Source: a virus. From it: a stretch of 22,051 nucleotides of DNA. A model generated the notes under the pieces. That model was not told where the DNA came from. It did not search any database and saw nothing but the letters and a program-made list of their open reading frames with translations. The stretch covers positions 1 through 22,051 of the IMG/VR virus record IMGVR_UViG_3300044705_000040; one strand, given 5' to 3'. Positions 488 through 20,907 of the stretch are shown piece by piece; position 1 is the first letter of the stretch, and every line of letters starts with the position of its first letter. Made by a program: the position numbers and the translations under genes.

Positions 488-787
488 TTACGCGCTCTGG
501 TAGATGATCGAGGGGGCTGCGGCGTTGCCGAGGATCTGGACCTTAATCACACTGTCCAGCATAGCACGCATGCGGAGAAGACGCTCGAGGCTGAAGCCGC
601 GCAGCTTGCCGGTCACCACGAGGCTGATCTGGGAGGGAGCTTCGCCGGTGATGTACCCGGCTTCTGTCTGCGTCAGCTGCCGGCGGTCGAGCTCTTTCGC
701 GAAATCCTTCGCCACAGACTTGCGAAGATTGTCGAGCTGAACAGCGATGGCCTTGCGGCGCGCGGCGAGCTTGGCACGATGGGACAT
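488..787 (-). CDS. Xre/HigA-like helix-turn-helix DNA-binding protein
   Basis: A 99-residue protein starting at ATG 787, preceded by the ribosome site GGAAGGT. A basic N-terminal helix (residues 1-33) is followed by a helix-turn-helix at about residues 37-80: LTQTEAGYITGEAPSQIS, then GKLRGFSLERLLRM. This pattern (LTQxEaa...QxxISxlxxGklxxFSLxrLlrm...) is typical of the HTH_37/Xre group, which includes HigA-type antitoxins and phage regulators. It probably binds DNA as a dimer and represses transcription. No HigB-like toxin is seen beside it. An in-frame TAA lies directly upstream of the start, so the frame cannot be extended. Its first 115 bases overlap the end of the upstream gene in another frame. 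A dyad that may be its target lies just downstream. Confidence 0.85.
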   Translation of the reverse strand: MSHRAKLAARRKAIAVQLDNLRKSVAKDFAKELDRRQLTQTEAGYITGEAPSQISLVVTGKLRGFSLERLLRMRAMLDSVIKVQILGNAAAPSIIYQSA

Positions 788-3186: not shown

Positions 3187-3672
3187 TTACTTCTGCTTCT
3201 TGCCACCCTTCTTGGCCGGGGCAGCCGGTGCCGGGGCCTGTTCCGCCACCGTGGCGGCTGCCACGAGAGTAGCCTTGTCCGGCGCCCCTTCACTGGACTC
3301 GGGGGCGAACTGCACCGTGCGCTCGTACCCGTACACCAGCCCGTCACGGTTCGGCTGCTTGCGGCTGACGATCTTACCGTTCTTCTTCTGCAACCGGCTG
3401 AGCTGGATGCCGACGGTCGTCGTCATACCGATGGGGTCCCGATCCGGGAATTTGGCGGTGAGCTCGGCGACGACCTCCTTCTTGGTCACACCTGCCGGAC
3501 GAAGCAGGGCTTGGTGCAACGTGCCGATCACCCCGTTTTCCCGCTTTGCCTGATTGGCAGCCTTCTTTGCCGCCTTGGCGGCTTCGCGCTGTTCCCGCTT
3601 CGCCTTGAGTTCGGCGGCGCGGAGTTCGGCCTTGGTCTGGGTGGGCTGGGTGCTGGTGGTTTCGCTGGTCAT
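3187..3672 (-). CDS. Basic winged-helix-like DNA-binding protein
   Basis: 161 residues from ATG 3672, with AGGAG as ribosome site. There are three parts. Residues 1-45 are a Lys/Arg/Ala/Glu-rich helix (AELRAAELKAKREQREAAKAAKKAANQAKRE, given here in outline only). Residues about 47-118 look like a winged helix: GVIGTLHQALLRPAGVTKKE as first helices, a recognition helix around TTTVGIQLSRLQKKNG, and a wing KIVSRKQPNRDGLVYGYER. The C-terminal 35 residues are rich in Ala, Pro and Lys and end PAPAAPAKKGGKKQK. This layout resembles nucleoid or linker-histone-like proteins, so DNA binding is likely. Target and role are unknown. A promoter-like element lies 68 bases upstream, making this the first gene of an operon running to 2368. 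Confidence 0.8.
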   Translation of the reverse strand: MTSETTSTQPTQTKAELRAAELKAKREQREAAKAAKKAANQAKRENGVIGTLHQALLRPAGVTKKEVVAELTAKFPDRDPIGMTTTVGIQLSRLQKKNGKIVSRKQPNRDGLVYGYERTVQFAPESSEGAPDKATLVAAATVAEQAPAPAAPAKKGGKKQK

Positions 3673-3739
3673 GGTCTGGCTCCTGTTTGGGGTTGTGCTA
3701 CCTTTGTGGGTTGGTGCCGTGCTGCGTTGCTATGCCCTA

Positions 3740-3768
3740 AGTATCGGGCAGTTGGTGGGTCTTGGCCA
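3740..3768 (-). promoter_or_regulatory. Leftward promoter candidate before winged-helix gene
   Basis: On the minus strand TGGCCA (3768-3763), a 17-base spacer and GATACT (3745-3740) precede the gene starting at 3672. The -35 match is moderate. The -10 matches the other leftward candidates. The same gap has two small dyads, TGCCC/GGGCA (3733-3737 with 3746-3750) around the -10 box and GGCCA/TGGCC (3764-3768 with 3776-3780) over the -35 box, which could be operator or weak terminator arms. Confidence 0.45.
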
Positions 3769-3951: not shown

Positions 3952-4089
3952 TTACTTGCTGTCCTGCTTTGAGGACAGGTCGGCAACGAGCTCGTTGTAC
4001 GCGCTTGGCATGTTGCGGGTCCAGCATGTGCCCATGTAGTGTAGCACCTGCTCGAAGGTTGCGGAGGTTGTGCTGATGGTCGTTGCCAT
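3952..4089 (-). CDS. Unknown 45-residue phage protein
   Basis: ATG 4089 is preceded by GAGGATAG as ribosome site. The short protein (MATTISTTSATFEQVLHYMG, ending LVADLSSKQDSK) has one clear helical middle part and no known motif. It is the first gene after a well-formed leftward promoter at 4147-4175 and is followed after two bases by the 54-residue gene. A longer frame up to 4275 reads mostly through untranslated sequence and lacks a ribosome site. Confidence 0.7.
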   Translation of the reverse strand: MATTISTTSATFEQVLHYMGTCWTRNMPSAYNELVADLSSKQDSK

Positions 4090-4146
4090 GTGACTATCCT
4101 CGTTGGGTTGGGGCTGGTGGTGTGTGCGCCCCGGTTGGTACGTACA

Positions 4147-4175
4147 AGTATCGTATGACATGGGAGAAAACTCAA
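4147..4175 (-). promoter_or_regulatory. Leftward sigma-70-like promoter
   Basis: On the minus strand TTGAGT (4175-4170), a 17-base spacer and GATACT (4152-4147) form the best leftward promoter candidate. It lies 58 bases upstream of the first leftward gene (start 4089). Together with the candidates at 3740-3768 and 2316-2344 it gives a common form TxGxxx-N17-xATACT. Confidence 0.6.
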
Positions 4176-4405
4176 GTGAATTGTGGCAGTGGCTTTGTAA
4201 CAGTTGATTGTAACAATGTGACGTGAATGTGGCGGGCTGGTCTGGTGTTTGGGGGTGCGGGGCTGACCGACCCACGACCTCGCACCTCGTTTGTGCCCAG
4301 CACCATCCTTAACAACTCGAGGATGTTTGCCCATCAAAGCACACGTGATCTATGTGGTTCAATCTCTAACCACCGGCCTCGCGCCGTCGCCGATCGACAC
4401 GGAGC

Positions 4406-4480
4406 CTTGAGCGGCCGGCAGAGGTGACCGGCCTCAAGAGGGGACGTCAGGGGGTGGAGGGGAAATAGGCCGGTCAACCT
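4406..4480. repeat. Overlapping inverted repeats, mutually exclusive hairpins
   Basis: The central segment GACCGGCCTCAA (4426-4437) can pair in two ways. To its left, TTGAGCGGCCGG (about 4407-4418) matches it over 10 bp with a 2-base bulge. To its right, AGGCCGGTCAACCT (4467-4480) matches AGGTGACCGGCCT (4422-4434) over 9+4 bp with a 1-base bulge. The two hairpins cannot form at the same time. The GGCCGG-type core therefore occurs three times in 75 bases, either as RNA switch arms or as protein-binding sites. Confidence 0.5.
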
Positions 4481-4733
4481 GACCCCCGGCGGGAGCCCCC
4501 CTAAAATATGAAGCAAATTTTCGGACGATGCGACCTCATCTATTCGGTCTTGAGCCACGGTAATGGTTGTCACCGCGCTGTCCGGTATAATAAGGCAATG
4601 AGGGACCCTCAACCTTCCGGACACCCGATTCAGTGCTTGGTGCGCCCTAGGTGTCCACCCCGGACCCTCCCTCCCTCGGCCTTTTCCCTCGGCAACCCCT
4701 TCTGCACGCGTTTCCCGTCCCTAAACGGTCTTT

Positions 4734-4881
4734 ATTACCCGATTAGGTCCCTATTACCTCTATCACAACACCTAATACCTCGCCTAACCCATTACCCTAT
4801 ATATGTTTATCCTATACGTATTATTAGAAGATTACCTCTGCACAAGGTTTTGAAAAAAAAAAAATTTACCACTACAATACC
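4734..4881. repeat. ATTACC/AATACC repeat array in AT-rich DNA
   Basis: ATTACC occurs at 4734, 4753, 4791 and 4831, with AATACC at 4774 and 4876. The first four sites, counting AATACC at 4774, are spaced 19, 21 and 17 bases, close to two helical turns, and all are in the same orientation. CGATTAGGT occurs at 4740-4748 and again at 4938-4946, with its inverse at 4969-4977. The arrangement resembles iterons of an origin or terminase-binding sites of a packaging region. The sequence cannot decide between them. Confidence 0.45.
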
Positions 4882-4894
4882 CTTATAATTAGGC

Positions 4895-4906
4895 AAAACG
4901 CGTTTT
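4895..4906. promoter_or_regulatory. Perfect palindrome AAAACGCGTTTT
   Basis: A 12-base perfect palindrome lying six bases after a TATAAT hexamer (4884-4889). Its placement near a possible transcription start would suit a repressor site. It could equally be part of an origin or packaging site. Confidence 0.35.
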
Positions 4907-4946
4907 TGTAAAGCCATATGCCACAAGGACTTACGTGCGATTAGGT

Positions 4947-4995
4947 ACAAAAAGAGACGCCCAATCAGACCTAATCGTCTAATCGGGCGTCTCTT
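4947..4995 (-). terminator. Leftward-oriented intrinsic terminator candidate
   Basis: AAGAGACGCCC (4952-4962) pairs with GGGCGTCTCTT (4985-4995) over 11 bp around a 22-base loop that contains an inner GAC/GTC pair. Read on the minus strand the stem is followed by a T-run (CTCTTTTTGTAC), as expected for a Rho-independent terminator. Read rightward there are only two T bases, so rightward transcription should pass. It would stop antisense transcripts coming from the structural genes, or it may serve another role such as packaging. Confidence 0.55.
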
Positions 4996-5140
4996 GCTGG
5001 GAAACTGGCGGTGATGTGGCCGGTTGTCTCTCCGGGCGACAACGAACAATAATGTGACCCCCCACTCGGCACAAGGGGGCTCCTCGGATACTCACCTTTC
5101 GCACTTGTGCCCTTCGTTTTCGCCTTTGAACTTTCCATCT

Positions 5141-5782
5141 ATGAGCGAGCCACTGAATCAGCCCACGCTCCGCATTGTGCCGGACGACCCTGCAGAGGAA
5201 ACGTCGGCGGTCATTCCCACCCCGGAGCAGGAAATTATTCAGCACGATCCTCAACATCCACCCCCACCCACTCGTCAGCCCGGCGACGAGCCGATTATCA
5301 TTAATGAAGCCAAGCCAGACACGGATGATCTCCTTACGGAAGTCCTCGAAGGAAAGCATGTCTACTCGTGGCCGGCTGGGGCGGTGGTCGGAGATGGAAC
5401 GCCAGGTCCCGGTCGGCGGCCGATCGATGTAGACGAGCGTATTGTCCGCGCTATGGCTATGGTAGGCGGGACGTATGATGAGATCGGTGAGTTCTTCGGC
5501 TGCTCCGGTACGGTTATTCGGAAGCGGTTCGGGGATATTGTACGCGGTGCGCGAGCGGGACGGAAACTTCGACTACGGCAAGCCCAGTACCAGACGGCGC
5601 TCGCTGGTAATGTCACGATGCAGATCTGGCTTGGTAAGAATGAGCTGGGTCAGCGTGATGAAGGCCGTCAACCACTCGGCGATCTATCCCGGTTCTCGGA
5701 CGAAGAGCTGGCGCAGATTGCGCAAGGTAAGGTGCCGGGGCTGCTCGGGGCGGGAAAGAAGGAAGATGAGGACGAGAAGTGA
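5141..5782 (+). CDS. terS: Terminase small subunit (putative)
   Basis: 213 residues from ATG 5141. The frame stays open upstream to 5024 but only through sequence that reads as untranslated. No Shine-Dalgarno site precedes ATG 5141, which is odd. The first 90 residues are Pro/Glu/Asp-rich and probably disordered. The middle holds a helix-turn-helix (about residues 105-135: VDERIVRAMAMVGGTYDEIG, then CSGTVIRKRFGDIVRG), followed by a helix with LRQAQYQTALAGNVTMQIWLGKNELG, typical of small terminase or terminase-like DNA-binding subunits. The protein should recognise the packaging site and load the large subunit. The gene overlaps the large-subunit gene by four bases (GTGA), and the noncoding region in front may contain its target. 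Confidence 0.85.
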   Translation: MSEPLNQPTLRIVPDDPAEETSAVIPTPEQEIIQHDPQHPPPPTRQPGDEPIIINEAKPDTDDLLTEVLEGKHVYSWPAGAVVGDGTPGPGRRPIDVDERIVRAMAMVGGTYDEIGEFFGCSGTVIRKRFGDIVRGARAGRKLRLRQAQYQTALAGNVTMQIWLGKNELGQRDEGRQPLGDLSRFSDEELAQIAQGKVPGLLGAGKKEDEDEK

Positions 5783-7281
5783 CGCAGATCCCACAGTCAG
5801 TTCGAGCGGCGGCGCTTCTTGAACTTAGACGCCGTCGCGGACAGAAGGCTGATGAGCTTCATGACGAGAACGGTAATTTTATCGGCATGCAGCGGTATTG
5901 TAAGCTCGTCACGCCGAACTGGAATTGGGATTGGCGACATCTGAGGTATGTTGACCACTATCTTGACGAAATCATCGCGGGTCGGTTGAAGCGATTGATC
6001 GTTGAGATGCCGACGCGTATCGGCAAGACAGAAAAGGTCAACGTTCGGTTTCCGGCCGCCTATTTGGAACTCAACCAAGATCATCCGATCATCTTGGGTG
6101 GGTACAATGAGCGGTTTGCGATGCGACTTTCACGTAAGGTCCACCGCATTGCGAAGGATCGCATACCCATGTCCAATCGGACAAGCGCAGCCGACTGGGA
6201 AACGGCTGAAGGCGGGGGTATCCGAGCGGCGGGCGTGGGTGTTGGTATCGCCGGTCTGCCGGCGAAGGGTCTACTGATTGACGACCCGACCAAGAACAAG
6301 GAAGACGCCTATTCTCAGGCCCACCGCGATAAGGTCTGGGACTGGTACACGGAAGATATGTACACCCGTTTGGAGCCGGACGGGTGGATCATTATTACGA
6401 TGGCACGCCGGCATGAGGATGATCTGGTCGGACGCATTTTGGCCAGTGAGGACGGTCCGAACTGGACGGTCCTGCGCCTCCCTGCGCTCGCCGAAGAGGA
6501 TGATCCTCTTGGGCGTGCTGAGGGAGAAGCATTGTGTCCGGATCGCTTCGATGAAGAAGCGTACGCGAAGATGCGTACGGTCATGGGCGAGGTGGCATTC
6601 TCGGCGCTCCAGCAGCAGAGGCCGACGCCTGCCTCGGGTCTTATCTTCCAGTCGGATCTGATTCGGTTCTACACCACCCCGGACCACCCCATTCAGGAAA
6701 AGGATGGCAGCATGGTGCCGGTGCTACCGGGTGGTAGATGGGATGAGATATTCCAGAGTTGGGATATGTCGTTCAAGGATAAGTCTGCAAGTGACCCTAT
6801 CGCTGGGCACGTTTGGAGTCGGAAAGGCGCCGATGCGTATTTTCTGGATCGCGTTGGCGGGCGGCGAAGTTTCACCAAATCGCTTGATGAAGTTCGGATG
6901 CTGTCGCGCAAGTGGCCCAAGGCTTTGTTGAAATTGGTCGAGGATAAAGCGAATGGACCGGCGGTCATTGCGACGTTGAAGTCGGAGCTTGGGGGATTCA
7001 AGGCCGTAGAGCCGGAAGGGGACAAGGTGTCGCGTGCGTGGTCTGTCACGCCCTTGTTCGAAGGGGGCAACGTCTGGTTTCCACATCCAAAGATTGCACC
7101 GTGGGTGGAGAAAGTCATTAATCAGATGATTCAGTTTCCCTTTGGGGCTAATGACGACGATGTAGACGCTCTTGTTCATGCTCTACGCAAGGTTATGAAG
7201 GCGATTGAGCGAGAGCTGCGACATAAGCGGTTCCGACAGAGACAGGTCCGAACGAAAAGTCTCCAATTGATGAAGATGTAA
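5779..7281 (+). CDS. terL: Terminase large subunit (ATPase and nuclease)
   Basis: 500 residues from GTG 5779. This is the motor that pumps DNA into the procapsid and cuts it. The ATPase domain shows a Walker A-type loop EMPTRIGKT (76-84, Lys83), Walker B LLIDD (165-169) and the motif IIITMARRHEDDLVGR (204-219), which matches the common TRWHEDDLxGR of large terminases with Ala-Arg-Arg replacing Thr-Arg-Trp. The RNase H-like nuclease domain shows acidic residues at SWDMS (Asp329), VEDK (Glu388, Asp389) and NDDDVDALVHAL (Asp459-463). The Walker A loop differs from the usual PPRHGKS form by TRIGKT. Length is normal. The gene is coupled to the small subunit and followed by a 62-base gap before the portal. 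Confidence 0.96.
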   Translation: MTQIPQSVRAAALLELRRRRGQKADELHDENGNFIGMQRYCKLVTPNWNWDWRHLRYVDHYLDEIIAGRLKRLIVEMPTRIGKTEKVNVRFPAAYLELNQDHPIILGGYNERFAMRLSRKVHRIAKDRIPMSNRTSAADWETAEGGGIRAAGVGVGIAGLPAKGLLIDDPTKNKEDAYSQAHRDKVWDWYTEDMYTRLEPDGWIIITMARRHEDDLVGRILASEDGPNWTVLRLPALAEEDDPLGRAEGEALCPDRFDEEAYAKMRTVMGEVAFSALQQQRPTPASGLIFQSDLIRFYTTPDHPIQEKDGSMVPVLPGGRWDEIFQSWDMSFKDKSASDPIAGHVWSRKGADAYFLDRVGGRRSFTKSLDEVRMLSRKWPKALLKLVEDKANGPAVIATLKSELGGFKAVEPEGDKVSRAWSVTPLFEGGNVWFPHPKIAPWVEKVINQMIQFPFGANDDDVDALVHALRKVMKAIERELRHKRFRQRQVRTKSLQLMKM

Positions 7282-7343: not shown

Positions 7344-9434
7344 ATGGCGACTTCGGTGAGTACACGAGTCGGGCGCACGCGCAGGAGTCTCGTACGCCGG
7401 ATCGTGGATGCGGTGACGGGTACCAAGCCGGCTGACCGGCCCAAGTACCCGCCATCGCCTTTTGACAAATGGGACTTCTCGAAGATCGACGCCGTCATTG
7501 ACGAAGCGTTCGAGTCCCAGACTATCGACGTCTCCCTCCAGAACAGCGGACAAGAAGGAATCACGCCGGCGCCAGGTCAGGCCTTCTTCTATCCTCGGCG
7601 CACCACTACAAATCCGATCGTTGTCAACCGTCTCTTCTTCCAGGGTGATCACTGGCAGAATGGCGACGGCTGGATTGGTCCGCACCCTGAGCAGACCAAC
7701 GAGAATTTTAACGATACGATGACGGAGATCGCGAATATCTTCACGTCGAAGAACGCGATTCGGGAAATCGTTACTCGTCACGCTCTTGGTGTCGTTGGTC
7801 GAAATATCCAGTGGGGTTTCTCGCCAGTTGACGAAGCCACTGATCCAAGTGGAAAGCCACCGGAAGAGGTTGTTGCGAAGATCGAAGAAGCCAAGAAGCT
7901 GATTCGTCCGTGGCTACAGTCACGAAAAGTCCAAACGCTGCTCCGGGATGCGGTGTGTACCCTGCTCCTGTCTGAGCGCGCCGGTATTCAGCTCGTCATC
8001 CCACCGGGACTCGCTGAGACAGACGGCGCCGGCAACCTTGTCATCGAAGCCGCCTCTATTGGGGAGGCGCTTGGGTATCTTTATCCCGAGCACCCGTTAC
8101 CGGATAATGCGGCGGTTATCCAGGACAAGGATACCCGAACCGAGGCCGGTGTCTGGCGCTACTCGAAGGAAGACGAGGATGACGAAGAAGCGTTGGCTGA
8201 AGGCGGCGACACCACGGTTCATTCCGATGACGATGAAGTTGAGTACGTAGCGATCTGCTTTGTAGATGAAACTGGCAAGACCGTCATCCGCGTATACCGT
8301 GACGGCGAGGATGACGAGCCATATGCCGAGTCAGAACTCGATATGGGCGGCCGAATCCCCATGTTCGAGATGCGTCGGGCGGCGCTCGTCACACTTCAGG
8401 TTCAGCAGGCACAACGCGCCTTGAACCTTGCCGAGTCCATGATTCCCCGGACGGCCGTCACGGCAGGGTTCTTGGAGCGCCTTCTCATTGATGCACAACT
8501 GCCCGGCGAGCCTGAGCTGGACGATGAAGGCAACGAGACGGGTCGTTGGATCGAAAAGCCCTTCTATACGGGCGCCGGTACGACGAATTTCGTGCAGTCG
8601 ACGGAGTACGAGGATGAAGAAGGTCGGGTCAAACGAGCGTCTGCCAAGATGCAGTATCGGGAACCGATCGCAGCAACGGGTCCTATCACGGCGTCTGACA
8701 AGCATTATCGCTCGATCCTTGACGAGACAGGCCAACTTCATGTCGTCATGGCTGGGGACTCGAATCCGTCGGGCACGTCGCGCTTGAATGCTCGTATCGA
8801 ATACCTGTCCACGCTTCAGTTGACGCAAGGCGAGGCTGAGGCGTGTTTCCGTTTCATTGTTGATACCGCGTTGGCGATGGCCGAGGCGCTGAGTAAGAAG
8901 CCCGGCTACTTCACCAACGTGATTCGATGCCAATGCGCGTGTCGTCTTGACGCGGGTCCGCTTCAGCCAGCGGATCGCCAAGCCATCGAGCAGGCCATTG
9001 GCAAGACGATTTCGCAAGAAACGGCTATGGCGCTTGTCGGAATCGAGGATGTCGAGGCAGAAAAGGCCCGCATGGCTCTCGATCCAATGTCTCGCACGGC
9101 ATACGCGGCAGCAGTTGGTGACGCGCTCAATAAGTTGACGGCGCCCGGTGCCACACTGGAAGGCGCTGCCCGGTTCATCGGCATCGATCCTAAACAGATT
9201 GATCTCCTGATGAGTGGTTCCCCTGGGCCAGAGCAGTTGCCTTCCAGTGGGGCACCTACCGGCACAGGACCAATTAGTCCGAAGAAGGTCGATCCAACGC
9301 CTTCTGATCGTCAACGCGGTCCCGGTGTTGGTGGTCCTAATAAACTTCCTGCGCCCGCCCCGGCAACCAAGCCGGCAACTTCTAGCTCCGGCAGCTCGGC
9401 TGGAGCTGGCTTACCCATCACCGGAGCGAAGTAA
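7344..9434 (+). CDS. Portal protein
   Basis: 696 residues from ATG 7344, with no clear Shine-Dalgarno site. Portals form the dodecameric ring at one capsid vertex, through which DNA enters and to which the tail connector binds. Position right after the large terminase, size and sequence support the call. There is a helical middle region, a segment AGDSNPSGTSRLNARIEYLS (about residues 470-490) of the kind seen in SPP1 gp6-like portals, and after it a long helix with ACFRFIVDTALAMAEALS. An acidic insertion lies at about residues 272-310 (runs of Asp/Glu), and the last 80 residues are Pro/Gly/Ser/Thr-rich and probably disordered. The length is larger than many portals (about 500) mainly because of these two parts. 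Confidence 0.92.
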   Translation: MATSVSTRVGRTRRSLVRRIVDAVTGTKPADRPKYPPSPFDKWDFSKIDAVIDEAFESQTIDVSLQNSGQEGITPAPGQAFFYPRRTTTNPIVVNRLFFQGDHWQNGDGWIGPHPEQTNENFNDTMTEIANIFTSKNAIREIVTRHALGVVGRNIQWGFSPVDEATDPSGKPPEEVVAKIEEAKKLIRPWLQSRKVQTLLRDAVCTLLLSERAGIQLVIPPGLAETDGAGNLVIEAASIGEALGYLYPEHPLPDNAAVIQDKDTRTEAGVWRYSKEDEDDEEALAEGGDTTVHSDDDEVEYVAICFVDETGKTVIRVYRDGEDDEPYAESELDMGGRIPMFEMRRAALVTLQVQQAQRALNLAESMIPRTAVTAGFLERLLIDAQLPGEPELDDEGNETGRWIEKPFYTGAGTTNFVQSTEYEDEEGRVKRASAKMQYREPIAATGPITASDKHYRSILDETGQLHVVMAGDSNPSGTSRLNARIEYLSTLQLTQGEAEACFRFIVDTALAMAEALSKKPGYFTNVIRCQCACRLDAGPLQPADRQAIEQAIGKTISQETAMALVGIEDVEAEKARMALDPMSRTAYAAAVGDALNKLTAPGATLEGAARFIGIDPKQIDLLMSGSPGPEQLPSSGAPTGTGPISPKKVDPTPSDRQRGPGVGGPNKLPAPAPATKPATSSSGSSAGAGLPITGAK

Positions 9435-12564: not shown

Positions 12565-13632
12565 ATGCCTCCGAAAAACCTCGGCATTCTGACGATGTCG
12601 GACATGCTGAAAGAGCGTTTCCAAACGCCCGTTCAGCTTGGTCTCGATACGATTCAGCGGTCGCTGCAGGCTGATCTGGCGATCCACAACCGTATCGTCA
12701 ACGACATCACTCAGACCTTCGCCGACACCACATCGGATCGTCGCCGTCGCTACGGCGTCTCGAGTCAGCTGGAGTTCTTGACGGCTGACGAGTTCACCCG
12801 CGCACACACCCAGAAGGTCATCACGGGCTCGGAAGTCGAGTTCCCGATGGATGGCTTTCAGGCCGCGGTCGGTTGGACTGCGCAGTTCTTCAAGAACAAG
12901 TCCGTGGCAGACATGGCCGCGACGCAGGTTGCCGCCAAGGTCGGCCACGTCGCACGTATTCGCAGCCAGCTGCAGAAGGCGATCTTCGGGTCGTCCAACT
13001 TCAGCACTTTCGACTATCGGGTCGACAACGTGCAGCTTGACGTCAAGCGCTTCGTGAACGCTGACGGTGCGCCGATCCCGATGGGTCCGAACGGCGAGAC
13101 GTTCAACGCCTCGACGCACACGCACTACCTGTTTCACGACACACTGGACAACGCGTCCGCACACGCGCTCGTTCAGACCGTGCTCGAGCACCACAACGAC
13201 GGGCAGATCCGCGTCTTCATCAACTCGGCCGACGAGGCTGCGTGGCGTGCTCTCGCGGACTTCAAGCCATACGTCGACGCCCGCCTCACGATCCCGATCA
13301 CGACCTCGAACCCGACGACTCGCCTCGATCCGTTCAAGACGAACGACCGAGCGATCGGCCTGTTCGACGCCGCCGAGGTCTGGGTCAAGCCGTGGGCACT
13401 CTCGAATTACGCGGTGGCCATGGACATCGCGACGCCGATGAAGCCGCTGGCGCTTCGGACGCGTGATGGTGGCGGTGCGCGTCTCGATACTGTCGGGACG
13501 AATGTGCTGTTCCCGCTTCAGGCCGACTACATGGAGTCGGAGTTCGGCTTCGGCGTCTGGACCCGCACCAACGGTGCGGTGCTCTATCACGCCGCCGGCG
13601 CGGTCGCCTACGTCGATCCCGTCATCCCGTAA
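12565..13632 (+). CDS. Major capsid protein
   Basis: 355 residues from ATG 12565, with GGCAGGAG as ribosome site. Features support a major capsid protein of the HK97-fold type: a helical N-terminus (LTMSDMLKERFQTPVQLGLDTIQ), then DRRRRYGVSSQLEFLTADEFTR and mixed strands, a long helix-rich middle (QLQKAIFGSSNF), a P-domain-like stretch (LVQTVLEHHNDGQIRVFINSADEAAWRALAD, in outline) and C-terminal strands ESEFGFGVWTRTNGAVLYHA ending in a hydrophobic tail. No N-terminal prodomain typical of protease-matured capsids is obvious, in line with the absence of a protease gene. Codon bias is strong. The gene follows the decoration gene and precedes connector genes, the standard order. Confidence 0.88.
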   Translation: MPPKNLGILTMSDMLKERFQTPVQLGLDTIQRSLQADLAIHNRIVNDITQTFADTTSDRRRRYGVSSQLEFLTADEFTRAHTQKVITGSEVEFPMDGFQAAVGWTAQFFKNKSVADMAATQVAAKVGHVARIRSQLQKAIFGSSNFSTFDYRVDNVQLDVKRFVNADGAPIPMGPNGETFNASTHTHYLFHDTLDNASAHALVQTVLEHHNDGQIRVFINSADEAAWRALADFKPYVDARLTIPITTSNPTTRLDPFKTNDRAIGLFDAAEVWVKPWALSNYAVAMDIATPMKPLALRTRDGGGARLDTVGTNVLFPLQADYMESEFGFGVWTRTNGAVLYHAAGAVAYVDPVIP

Positions 13633-17202: not shown

Positions 17203-17700
17203 GTGGCAAACGATGAAATCGTAATCAAGTTGAGTGGCCGTACCTTTCGTAAGGCTACGACTACGACGATCGACCAAGACGCATATGTCATGCGTCGTAT
17301 GCGTGATTTCGGCCTCATTGAGATCGCGTCGTCATTTGATGTTAAGAAAGATGATTTGAACGATTTTTCCGAGAAGCTTTTACTTCAGGCTTTCGAGACT
17401 GGCAAGCTTTTCGAGATCCTCGGCGGTGTGTTGGTGGAAGATGGGGTCGCTTGGACGCGCGAAGTCGCGGCTCAGAACGCCCACTTCTTCGGAACACTGA
17501 CCAAGGTCGAGGATAAGGAACAACTCTTTTCAAGTATCGCAGCTGTGCTGCTTGATTTTTTAGTGGCCGCCGCCGCATGGTCGACGCGTTCCCAGAGATT
17601 TTCCGTAGCGGAAGCCGTCGGCGGCCTCAAAGAGAGCGCCCGTACCGCGGAGACCCCGAGCTCGACGTCGGAGAGTGGAATGGTGTTGTCCGCGCCCTAG
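17203..17700 (+). CDS. Tail assembly chaperone (gpG-like)
   Basis: 165 residues from GTG 17203, chosen for the AGGGAG site upstream. The protein has a strand-rich start (NDEIVIKLSGRTFRKATTTT) and a helical main part (RRMRDFGLIEIASS, NDFSEKLLLQAFETGKLFEILG, LFSSIAAVLLDFLVAAAAWS). Its place between the tail tube and tape measure genes, and the overlap with a second frame at a slippery site, identify it as the first tail assembly chaperone, equivalent to lambda gpG or SPP1 gp17.5. It binds the tape measure before tube polymerisation and is absent from the finished virion. The unshifted C-terminus after the slip site is Ser/Arg-rich. Confidence 0.85.
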   Translation: MANDEIVIKLSGRTFRKATTTTIDQDAYVMRRMRDFGLIEIASSFDVKKDDLNDFSEKLLLQAFETGKLFEILGGVLVEDGVAWTREVAAQNAHFFGTLTKVEDKEQLFSSIAAVLLDFLVAAAAWSTRSQRFSVAEAVGGLKESARTAETPSSTSESGMVLSAP

Positions 17701-17885
17701 GAGAAAACAATCCAAGTCAGTACAGAGAGATACTGACTTGGCCGGTTCAGGAGGCCCTGCTAGCGTACATTGAGCGTGTCTTAAAGCCCGACGCGCTTGA
17801 GCATTACAATAAGTTGATGGATTGGTACATGCACGGCAGGCTTGGGAAGAAACCTTCGATTCCGGCGATTTTGAAAGATGTCTGA
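17203..17885 (+). CDS. Frameshifted tail chaperone fusion (gpGT-like)
   Basis: Reading 17203-17562 and continuing one base back from 17562 to 17885 gives a 227-residue fusion. The second frame alone (ATG 17577, 102 residues) contains the conserved-looking part GDPELDVGEWNGVVRALGEN, then WPVQEALLAYIERVLKPDALEHYNK and a C-terminal YMHGRLGKKPSIPAIL. Such fused products are standard in long-tailed phages and are made at a low, fixed rate relative to the unshifted protein. They recruit the tape measure to tail-tube subunits. The stop overlaps the tape-measure start by eight bases. A separate start at 17577 has no good ribosome site, which favours the fusion. Confidence 0.85.
17556..17626 (+). promoter_or_regulatory. 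-1 ribosomal frameshift signal
   Basis: The heptamer T-TTT-TTA (17556-17562) is read in the zero frame as GAT TTT TTA GTG, an ideal X-XXY-YYZ slip site. Two bases after it GGCCGCCG (17565-17572) can pair with CGGCGGCC (17619-17626), with an inner hairpin TTCCG-TAG-CGGAA (17601-17613). This would stimulate slippage, although the spacer is shorter than the usual 5-9 bases, so the lowest pairs may open. The shift leads into the second chaperone frame. Confidence 0.85.
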
Positions 17886-20800
17886 CGATATTGACATTGG
17901 TCTAGGAGTATACGAGAAATCTGGCTCACAGGCTTTAATTGAAGCCGTGCGACAGAAGCTCCAGGCCTATCGTCAGGAGCTTCAGAATCTTGTAGACTTC
18001 GAGGCAGAGTACGGTCAGCACGGCAGCACTGGCATTGAGGGCAGCTTCCGTGCTATCAACGCCGAGGTCAACGATGTTATTACCCAGTTTCTTAAGATGG
18101 GTAGTACCATCGATATCACCAACGCGCAGGCTGTCAAAGCTTTTCGAGAAGAAGCCGTCGAACTTCGGAACTACCTCGAGAGTATCGACGCTGCTGGTGC
18201 TGCGATAGATCGTCTCAATAACGGTCTTACCGCGCTCAACCAAGCCAGCCAACGCGCGAACGAAGGCCTTGCTACAGGGGCGGCATCCACCCCGGCCGCG
18301 CAAGCCGGTCCTGCTCTTGCTGAGGCCTCCGCGGGAGCAGCACAAGCTGACGCAGAAGTTCAGCGCCTCGCGACGGATGTTAATATCGCGATTGGCGCTT
18401 TTGTGCGTATGGCGCAGGTTGTTGATATCTCCAGCAAAGAAGCTGTCACAGCCTTCCGTGCGGAAGGTGACGCTCTTGCTGCAAACCTAGTGCGCCTTGG
18501 CGCAACCGACGCGGAACTCAACCGTATCGGTACGGCAATTGCCGGTGTTGAGCGGGCCTATGGCGCCAACACTGTTGCTATCAATGAAAATAATGCATCA
18601 GTTGATAAGATCCCGGTTACGGCGCGTCGTGGTGCGAATGCCTTCGCAACACTCGCGTTCGGTTTGGCCGCGGGCGGTACTTCTGCGCGTTCCGCTGCGA
18701 TTGCAATCGGTAGTGCTGTATCTGCGACTGCCGCCTTCGCAGAATCCGCGCGTATTGCGGCGGCGGCGTCCGGTATAGGTGCGCTTATCACTGTACTGGC
18801 TACAGTCATTGGTCTTTTCTATGACCTGAACAAGGAAGAGAAGCAGTCGGCCGATTTCTTGAACAACATCGGCAACCTTCGAGCAGATCAGCTAAAGATT
18901 CTTGAGCAGACTGCGAGGGCCAACGCGGATGTTGCTCAACAGGCCGCGGCCGCTGCAGCGGCACAGGTAGAGGCTAACGCCCAGTCGCTAAATCCGATCA
19001 AGAATGTTGAGGCCGCGTTCCAGACGTTCCGCGCACGGCAGCTTCAGGACCATTATAACGACCTTCTTGCGATTCAGAAGAAGTACACTGACGCGCGGAT
19101 TGCGGCCGAAGAAGATGAGCAAAAGCGTCTTGAGGAGCAAGGTCGCAAGGAAATCGAGAAGGCACAACAGCAGGAGACCGAGCGACTTCAGGGACCGGCT
19201 GCGGCACGGCGCCTCGCGGCTGACCAAGAACTTGCAGACTCGCTTCGAGAACTAGCGAAAGAGACAGGCTTTGAGAAAGACCGCACGGCAGCTATTTCTG
19301 GTCTGCGACGTCAGCATGCAGAGACCATTGCCAAGATTGATCAGGAAGAAGAGGATAAGCGCCGAGTTCTTTTCGAGAAGTTGCAAAGCGACCGGCTGAA
19401 ATCTGAGGCCGCTCTTGAGCAGGACTCGTTTCAGGTTCGTCGTGATGAGGCCACTCGACGTCAGCAGCAAGCTGCAGAAGAGATTACAAAAAATCGTGAT
19501 CTAAACGCCAAACAGCGTCACGACGCGATCGTTATCACAGAACAGACGCTTACTGCCGATCTGACTAAGATCGAAAGAGACCGGCAGGAAGAGATTCGCC
19601 ATATTGTAGAAGATGCTCAGGGTAAGTTGGATGAGATCGGCGGCACTGGCGTTGACGAAGAGAAGATCCGTAACCGCTACAAGACCCAGCTTCAAGTCTT
19701 GCAGGCGGCAATTGCCAGCACGTCTACGAGCGACGCGGTAAAGGAAGCCGCGCGGCAGGGTATCGCGCTTATCAATCAGCTGATCCCGCAAGAAGTCGCG
19801 GAAGATCGGATCAAGCAGATTGAGAAGCAGGTGTCTGCCACGATTACAACGTCTGAGCAAGATGTCACAAGAATTAATGCTCTTGTTGCAGCACACGGTC
19901 TAACTGAGGAGCAGGCGCGGACGCAAATCGTGGACGCGCTTAATAAGCAGAAGCAGGCTATTGAGGACATCCTGCCGGAACTCGAGCAGGAGGCCGCACT
20001 TCTGCCAGGTGACGCGGAGGCTCAGGCAAAAGTCGAGCAGTACAAGACCAAGCTCCTTGAACTCAAGATCGCAATCGCTCAGACATCGGACGAATTCTAT
20101 AACCTGCGCGTTGCTGGTGTGAATGCGACAGAGGATGCTATTGCGAAGATGATTACATCCGTTCCGTCTTTGATCCAGAACAATTCGGAACAGGTAAATA
20201 ACATCAACGCAATGCGTGTTCATCTTGCATCAGCAGAGGCAGAGCTTGCGGATTTGATGAAGGGCCCCCAGACAGAAGCTTCGGCGCAGCGCATTACACA
20301 GTTGCGTGCAGAAATCCAAGGTGTTAACATCGATCTTAACAACGCCAAACAGTCACTTACGACGTGGAAGGATCTGTTCTTGGATGCCGCGCGCTCTATT
20401 GTTTCCGCGCTTTTTGAAGTGGAAGCAAAGATGTTCGCGGTTTACCTCGTGCAGAAGACTCTTGGCCTGTTTGGTGGCGGTGGTGGTGGCCTCAGTGCAG
20501 TAACGCAGCTTGCGGGTGACGTTGCCGGTGCTTCTATCGGAGTGGCTAGTGGCGGTCTTGTTACTGGACCCGGTACGAGCACGAGTGACAGCATACCTGC
20601 CCGTTTGTCTACGGGGGAGTATGTTATAAACGCGCGCGCCGTAAGCCGTGCAGGGGTCGGCTTCCTTAACGCAATTAACTCCCTAGGGAGTATGGGTACC
20701 ATACGCCCGCGTCGGTATGCCGGGTTTGCAGGGGGTGGCTTAGTTACCACTACCGACCAGACCGGCGAGGGTGGTAGTAAACATGAATTGACCCTCGGTC

Positions 20801-20907
20801 TCGAGGACGGAGTTGTCCTAAAGAAGCTGGAAAGCTCTGCCGGCGAGGCTACGCTTTTCAAAGTTCTCGAGAAGAACAGAAACAAGCTTCGTTCGCTCAT
20901 TGGATAA
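17878..20907 (+). CDS. Tape measure protein
   Basis: 1009 residues from ATG 17878, overlapping the chaperone end by eight bases. This is the longest gene, as expected for the protein that sets tail length and is ejected with the DNA. Residues 63-123 and 167-227 are two copies of a helical unit. Residues about 255-315 are Ala/Gly-rich and hydrophobic with a likely membrane-inserting helix (GALITVLATVIGLFYDL). Residues about 320-860 are long coiled-coil-type helices rich in Gln, Glu, Lys and Ala. The C-terminal region has SGGLVTGPGTSTSDSIPARL and STGEYVINARAVSR (about 888-925), a motif shared by many tape measures. No lytic transglycosylase or peptidase domain is seen. Ordinary codon use contrasts with the strongly biased tail tube gene. 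Confidence 0.93.
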   Translation: MSDDIDIGLGVYEKSGSQALIEAVRQKLQAYRQELQNLVDFEAEYGQHGSTGIEGSFRAINAEVNDVITQFLKMGSTIDITNAQAVKAFREEAVELRNYLESIDAAGAAIDRLNNGLTALNQASQRANEGLATGAASTPAAQAGPALAEASAGAAQADAEVQRLATDVNIAIGAFVRMAQVVDISSKEAVTAFRAEGDALAANLVRLGATDAELNRIGTAIAGVERAYGANTVAINENNASVDKIPVTARRGANAFATLAFGLAAGGTSARSAAIAIGSAVSATAAFAESARIAAAASGIGALITVLATVIGLFYDLNKEEKQSADFLNNIGNLRADQLKILEQTARANADVAQQAAAAAAAQVEANAQSLNPIKNVEAAFQTFRARQLQDHYNDLLAIQKKYTDARIAAEEDEQKRLEEQGRKEIEKAQQQETERLQGPAAARRLAADQELADSLRELAKETGFEKDRTAAISGLRRQHAETIAKIDQEEEDKRRVLFEKLQSDRLKSEAALEQDSFQVRRDEATRRQQQAAEEITKNRDLNAKQRHDAIVITEQTLTADLTKIERDRQEEIRHIVEDAQGKLDEIGGTGVDEEKIRNRYKTQLQVLQAAIASTSTSDAVKEAARQGIALINQLIPQEVAEDRIKQIEKQVSATITTSEQDVTRINALVAAHGLTEEQARTQIVDALNKQKQAIEDILPELEQEAALLPGDAEAQAKVEQYKTKLLELKIAIAQTSDEFYNLRVAGVNATEDAIAKMITSVPSLIQNNSEQVNNINAMRVHLASAEAELADLMKGPQTEASAQRITQLRAEIQGVNIDLNNAKQSLTTWKDLFLDAARSIVSALFEVEAKMFAVYLVQKTLGLFGGGGGGLSAVTQLAGDVAGASIGVASGGLVTGPGTSTSDSIPARLSTGEYVINARAVSRAGVGFLNAINSLGSMGTIRPRRYAGFAGGGLVTTTDQTGEGGSKHELTLGLEDGVVLKKLESSAGEATLFKVLEKNRNKLRSLIG

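Follow-up and report, generated by a model that had tools for sequence, protein, structure and literature searches.

The AT-rich intergenic stretch in front of the packaging genes of this virus is probably the control region of a rightward late promoter, with sites upstream at which a phage regulator would bind, and as far as its sequence features go we regard it as a reasonably well supported element of a familiar type. The DNA analysed, here called the window, is IMG/VR record IMGVR_UViG_3300044705_000040 at its full length of 22,051 bases, a single metagenome contig that represents part of a genome. The original prediction had read the stretch as an origin or packaging site marked by ATTACC repeats: a genuine, conserved cis-acting region is present and the ATTAGGT sites stand, whereas the supposed ATTACC iterons are mostly unconserved and are not helically phased.

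Gene arrangement

Between about 1 and 4.1 kb of the window the frames run mostly leftward, and beyond them lies a rightward packaging and structural block comprising terS, terL, portal, major head protein and tape-measure protein (Table 1). The repeat stretch sits in the apparently non-coding gap of about 1 kb that separates the leftward from the rightward block. It is indeed as AT-rich as had been claimed (37% GC, against 51% to 65% in 500-base windows elsewhere), and its nearness to the small terminase gene is likewise borne out, the likely terS ATG at 5141 being 164 bp from position 4977. The predicted structure of TerS was too poor for use (mean pLDDT 47). Among the leftward genes, a small helix-turn-helix protein (488-787, minus strand) matches Pfam HTH_37 (E 1.2e-9) and phrog_2339. 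A known structured RNA or tRNA was considered and rejected: Rfam gave no match at gathering score and the window holds no tRNA.

Table 1. Positions of the features discussed, in window coordinates (L003 is the relative used for comparison)
Feature	Position	Strand	Basis or conservation
Basic protein, putative RTTAGG binder	3187-3672	-	68% identical in L003; predicted winged helix
GC-richer left part of block 4602-4887	4602-4667		TGGTGCGCC..TAGGT.TCCACCCCG; L003 alignment
Six A[AT]TACC copies, span	4734-4881	+	1/6 exact in L003
ATTAGGT (RTTAGG site)	4742-4748	+	Conserved, L003 2109
ACCTAAT, inverted RTTAGG site	4770-4776	-	Conserved, L003 2138
CCTAAC, inverted RTTAGG site	4783-4788	-	Conserved, L003 2150
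Putative sigma-70-type promoter, TTGAAA-N17-TACAAT	4850-4878	+	10/12 consensus; conserved, L003 2217-2245
A12 run, -35 end and start of the 17-base promoter spacer	4853-4864	+	Sequence
ATTAGG, shortly past the -10	4888-4893	+	Outside the block aligned with L003
Second direct CGATTAGGT	4938-4946	+	Segment outside the block aligned with L003
Strong hairpin, inverted CGATTAGGT (4969-4977) at its centre	4952-4995		No counterpart in the L003 alignment
Conserved 42-bp leader directly before the terS ATG	5098-5139		34/42 identical in L003
terS, small terminase candidate	ATG 5141, 5141-5782 in frame 5024-5782	+	Position; HTH-region relatives
terL, large terminase	5779-7281	+	phrog_38, E 1.6e-89
Portal	7344-9434	+	Named from position and relatives; own PHROGs match just E 3.6
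Major head protein	12565-13632	+	phrog_3990, E 7e-27
Tape-measure protein	17878-20907	+	phrog_2335, E 9.1e-17

Conservation of the intergenic region

Conservation was judged from one pairwise comparison, between the window and its sole informative relative, L003 (IMGVR_UViG_3300000363_000495), which was found by a portal scan of viral contigs and whose gene arrangement matches that of the window (identity 76% for TerL and 56% for the terS frame; the leftward basic protein is listed in Table 1). When both intergenic regions were aligned locally, three blocks scored higher than any of 300 alignments in which the window side had been shuffled (maximum 31): 4602-4887 against L003 1976-2255, which scores 58 and has 199 identities in its 286 window bases, 5098-5139 (score 44) and 4487-4524 (score 36). 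The next block, with a score of 28, falls inside the shuffle range. A coding explanation of the conserved block was rejected, as a six-frame comparison returned just alignments with stops or shifted frames, and these, together with the single-base gaps, argue that block 4602-4887 is non-coding. The conserved letters, their conserved spacing to the hexamers, the gene order and this non-coding character can all be read directly from the two sequences.

Several smaller elements appear in the same comparison. The island at 4487-4524, conserved and non-coding, contains CTAAAATATG, and that at 4639-4661, also conserved and non-coding, is GC-rich and reads TGGTGCGCC..TAGGT.TCCACCCCG. The leader before terS is in frame with that gene in L003 and one base out of frame in the window, with no clear Shine-Dalgarno sequence to be seen. 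Upstream of leftward gene starts both phages carry CGATA[CT]TT, on the minus strand at 3739-3746 and 4146-4153 of the window and at 1184, 1455 and 1636 of L003, and this may be the -10 of leftward promoters; the window has another copy at 17532, inside the rightward gene block.

Close relatives of the portal and capsid proteins were found only in L003 and L004, both from the single-protein portal scan of viral contigs. Single-protein scans of these contigs with TerL and with the capsid protein found no relatives and alignment scans with the same two proteins nothing further, while the portal alignment scan found three more loci, about 31% identical. A DNA-pattern scan for the GC-richer island returned nothing beyond the record of L003 itself (entered as L005). 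The genome scan gave eight distant TerL loci (26-43% identical), and the TerS scan 506 relatives, of which 80 were kept, all of them distant except L003. ATTAGGT was counted over 92 loci (95 minus the copies L001, L002 and L005): 25 of them, mostly AT-rich, hold at least two copies, and only L003 has a cluster shortly upstream of terS. In L027 and L031 there is one opposite-strand ATTAGGT pair each, within 46 bp and kilobases from the terS match. A blastn search of 4450-5180 against phages found no match, nor did tblastn with portal and capsid in 50,697 phage records (threshold E 1e-5).

RTTAGG sites and ATTACC repeats

Two repeats of the stretch had been pointed out, and they fare very differently when L003 is taken into account, so that a single relative suffices to tell the significant repeat, RTTAGG, from ATTACC, the one that first catches the eye. 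The sequence CGATTAGGT is present twice directly and once inverted, as described (4740 and 4938 on the plus strand, 4969-4977 on the minus strand), and these three copies are all that the window contains; in shuffles, the occurrence of any 9-mer three times over both strands had P 0.006. It is part of a motif, RTTAGG, that has six of its eight copies in the window within 4742-4975 and four of its six copies in L003 within 2100-2155. Measured from the -10 hexamer TACAAT (4873 in the window, 2240 in L003), the offsets in window and L003 are -131 and -131 for ATTAGGT, -103 and -102 for ACCTAAT, -90 and -90 for CCTAAC, and -23 and -23 for TTGAAA. The joint 7-mer score of the two sequences was reached in 0 of 3000 paired shuffles, over stretches whose limits were chosen once the alignment had been seen. 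No named family in the libraries searched matched the RTTAGG motif.

The six A[AT]TACC copies in a single orientation are there as well, on the plus strand at 4734, 4753, 4774, 4791, 4831 and 4876, with 6 more on the plus and 11 on the minus strand elsewhere in the window. For the motif as named post hoc, none of 2000 dinucleotide shuffles of 4734-4977, made with a shortened A-run, contained as many as six copies; with any 6-mer allowed P is 0.034, and with any 6-mer plus one alternative letter 0.017. The excess is thus real, but modest after allowing for free motif choice. The helical phasing ascribed to these repeats is absent: at 10.5 bp the six sites have phases of 0, 8.5, 8.5, 4.5, 2.5 and 5.5, with a resultant of 0.10 (P 0.95), and the first four copies alone give P 0.55. 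The sole copy that is exact in L003 is the one at 4876, within the promoter; those at 4753 and 4831 are retained there as ATTAC, and those at 4734, 4774 and 4791 diverge more. With one copy of six exact and no phasing, ATTACC does not behave as an iteron.

The putative late promoter

In a consensus scan TTGAAA-N17-TACAAT was the top promoter match of the region. As positions 4000-5400 hold five promoter-like sites against 1.0 expected, the consensus by itself is weak evidence for a promoter; hexamers and spacing are conserved in L003, where the spacer is A-rich and equal in length, and terS, terL and portal lie downstream. The run of twelve A, correctly reported, is mostly the spacer of this putative promoter. 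The hexamers had been overlooked in the original prediction, as had the RTTAGG sites at 4771, 4783 and 4888 and the hairpin at 4952-4995.

With z about -6 for both strands, this hairpin is highly stable; five T follow it on the minus strand, so that it could end leftward transcripts; the output of the consensus scanner did not contain it. The leader of L003 is shorter than that of the window and its fold is ordinary (z -0.9).

From these features we infer that the hexamers serve as a promoter, that RTTAGG is bound by a regulator, and in which direction this would act. A host RNA polymerase of the sigma-70 type would bind the two hexamers, and transcription from them would run through terS, terL and portal into the genes beyond. 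The RTTAGG sites, an inverted pair and one more, lie some 95-145 bp before the presumed start; a phage DNA-binding protein would occupy them and turn the promoter on late, or alternatively repress it. In the window, with its longer leader, the extra sites and the hairpin may tune the late promoter.

A candidate for such a regulator is the basic protein encoded on the minus strand at 3187-3672, and the putative link between it and RTTAGG consists of neighbourhood and shared conservation. Its structural model (mean pLDDT 72, pTM 0.50, built on a two-sequence alignment) has, over residues 48-116, three helices and two strands in winged-helix order. Over 46-121 it is matched by many winged-helix regulators of the Fur, PerR, MarR and PadR types, at Z values of at most 8.0 and a best Foldseek E of 0.028; such Z values may reflect just a common arrangement. 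That no known regulator family appeared among these structure matches was not weighed as evidence. Pfam and PHROGs families all fell short of E 0.05, and tblastn of the phage collection gave no match.

Comparison with known late promoters

Sigma-70-type hexamers before a packaging and structural operon, and conserved short repeats upstream of them, are both found here. In these respects the stretch resembles the Ltr-, RinA- and Alt-dependent late promoters of Gram-positive temperate phages, in which a sigma-70-type promoter lies in an intergenic region before packaging and structural genes, with short repeats clustered upstream and a small candidate DNA-binding protein encoded nearby. According to PMC13123087, the P23 late promoter of Phi13 has a repeat region from -107 to -42 whose deletion abolishes activity, and at the TP901-1 late promoter Alt binds four repeats from -76 to -32. 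Unlike the four direct repeats between -107 and -32 so described for Phi13 and TP901-1, the RTTAGG sites form an inverted set, and they lie farther upstream than the repeats of either phage. The candidate protein is likewise encoded nearby but, unlike the proteins of the Ltr, RinA and Alt systems, its gene points leftward, away from the late operon; it is likened to them by its proposed role.

Alternative explanations

A packaging site (pac or cos), in which TerS would bind RTTAGG or other conserved islands and TerL would cut in the intergenic region or at the terS start, is in our view possible though unlikely. The stretch lies directly upstream of terS, and the conserved islands outside the promoter (4487-4524, 4602-4667 and 5098-5139) are left unaccounted for by a late promoter; the island at 4639-4661 was also looked at by eye as a possible cos site. 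The pac of SPP1, as described in PMC6316719, overlaps the late promoters PL1/PL2, a ribosome-binding site and gene 1, so that packaging could coexist with a promoter here too. With that region the stretch shares a late promoter, here putative, and a terS start lying together, with separate conserved elements on either side; TerS binding and cleavage are hypothetical for the stretch. The TerL relatives include those of Listeria B054/LP041 (about 41% identity), and LP041 is described in PMC6033974 and PMC8303350 as circularly permuted, a likeness that gives a weak hint of headful packaging. A packaging site alone, however, would have no need of the fixed spacing between RTTAGG and the hexamers.

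Rather more doubtful is an undescribed late-gene switch, in which a winged-helix regulator with no sequence relatives in the libraries searched would bind an array of inverted RTTAGG sites some 95-145 bp upstream of the late promoter, and would couple late transcription to the start of packaging through the array itself or through the adjacent conserved islands.

A replication origin, with iterons beside an AT-rich unwinding stretch, is improbable. The clustered repeats, the base composition and the position between divergent gene blocks would suit it, and repeats beside an AT-rich stretch recall origins of the oriL/oriR type in SPP1 (PMC6316719). Unlike the repeats described there, however, those of the window are mostly unconserved and unphased and have no recognised origin-binding protein nearby; the leftward frames tested of this partial genome yielded no recognised initiator or replication gene, and the GC skew, proposed as a check for an origin, is mostly positive both left and right of the site, with no switch of sign there.

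That the repeats arose by chance in an AT-rich spacer is the least likely reading of all, for while the modest excess of ATTACC and the loss of most of its copies from L003 fit it, the conservation of the RTTAGG sites, the hexamers and the spacing between them makes chance a disfavoured account of RTTAGG.

Implications

The reading as a rightward late promoter with upstream regulator sites yields a testable late promoter, an operator motif and a candidate regulator for a phage lineage in which neither portal nor capsid had a tblastn match.
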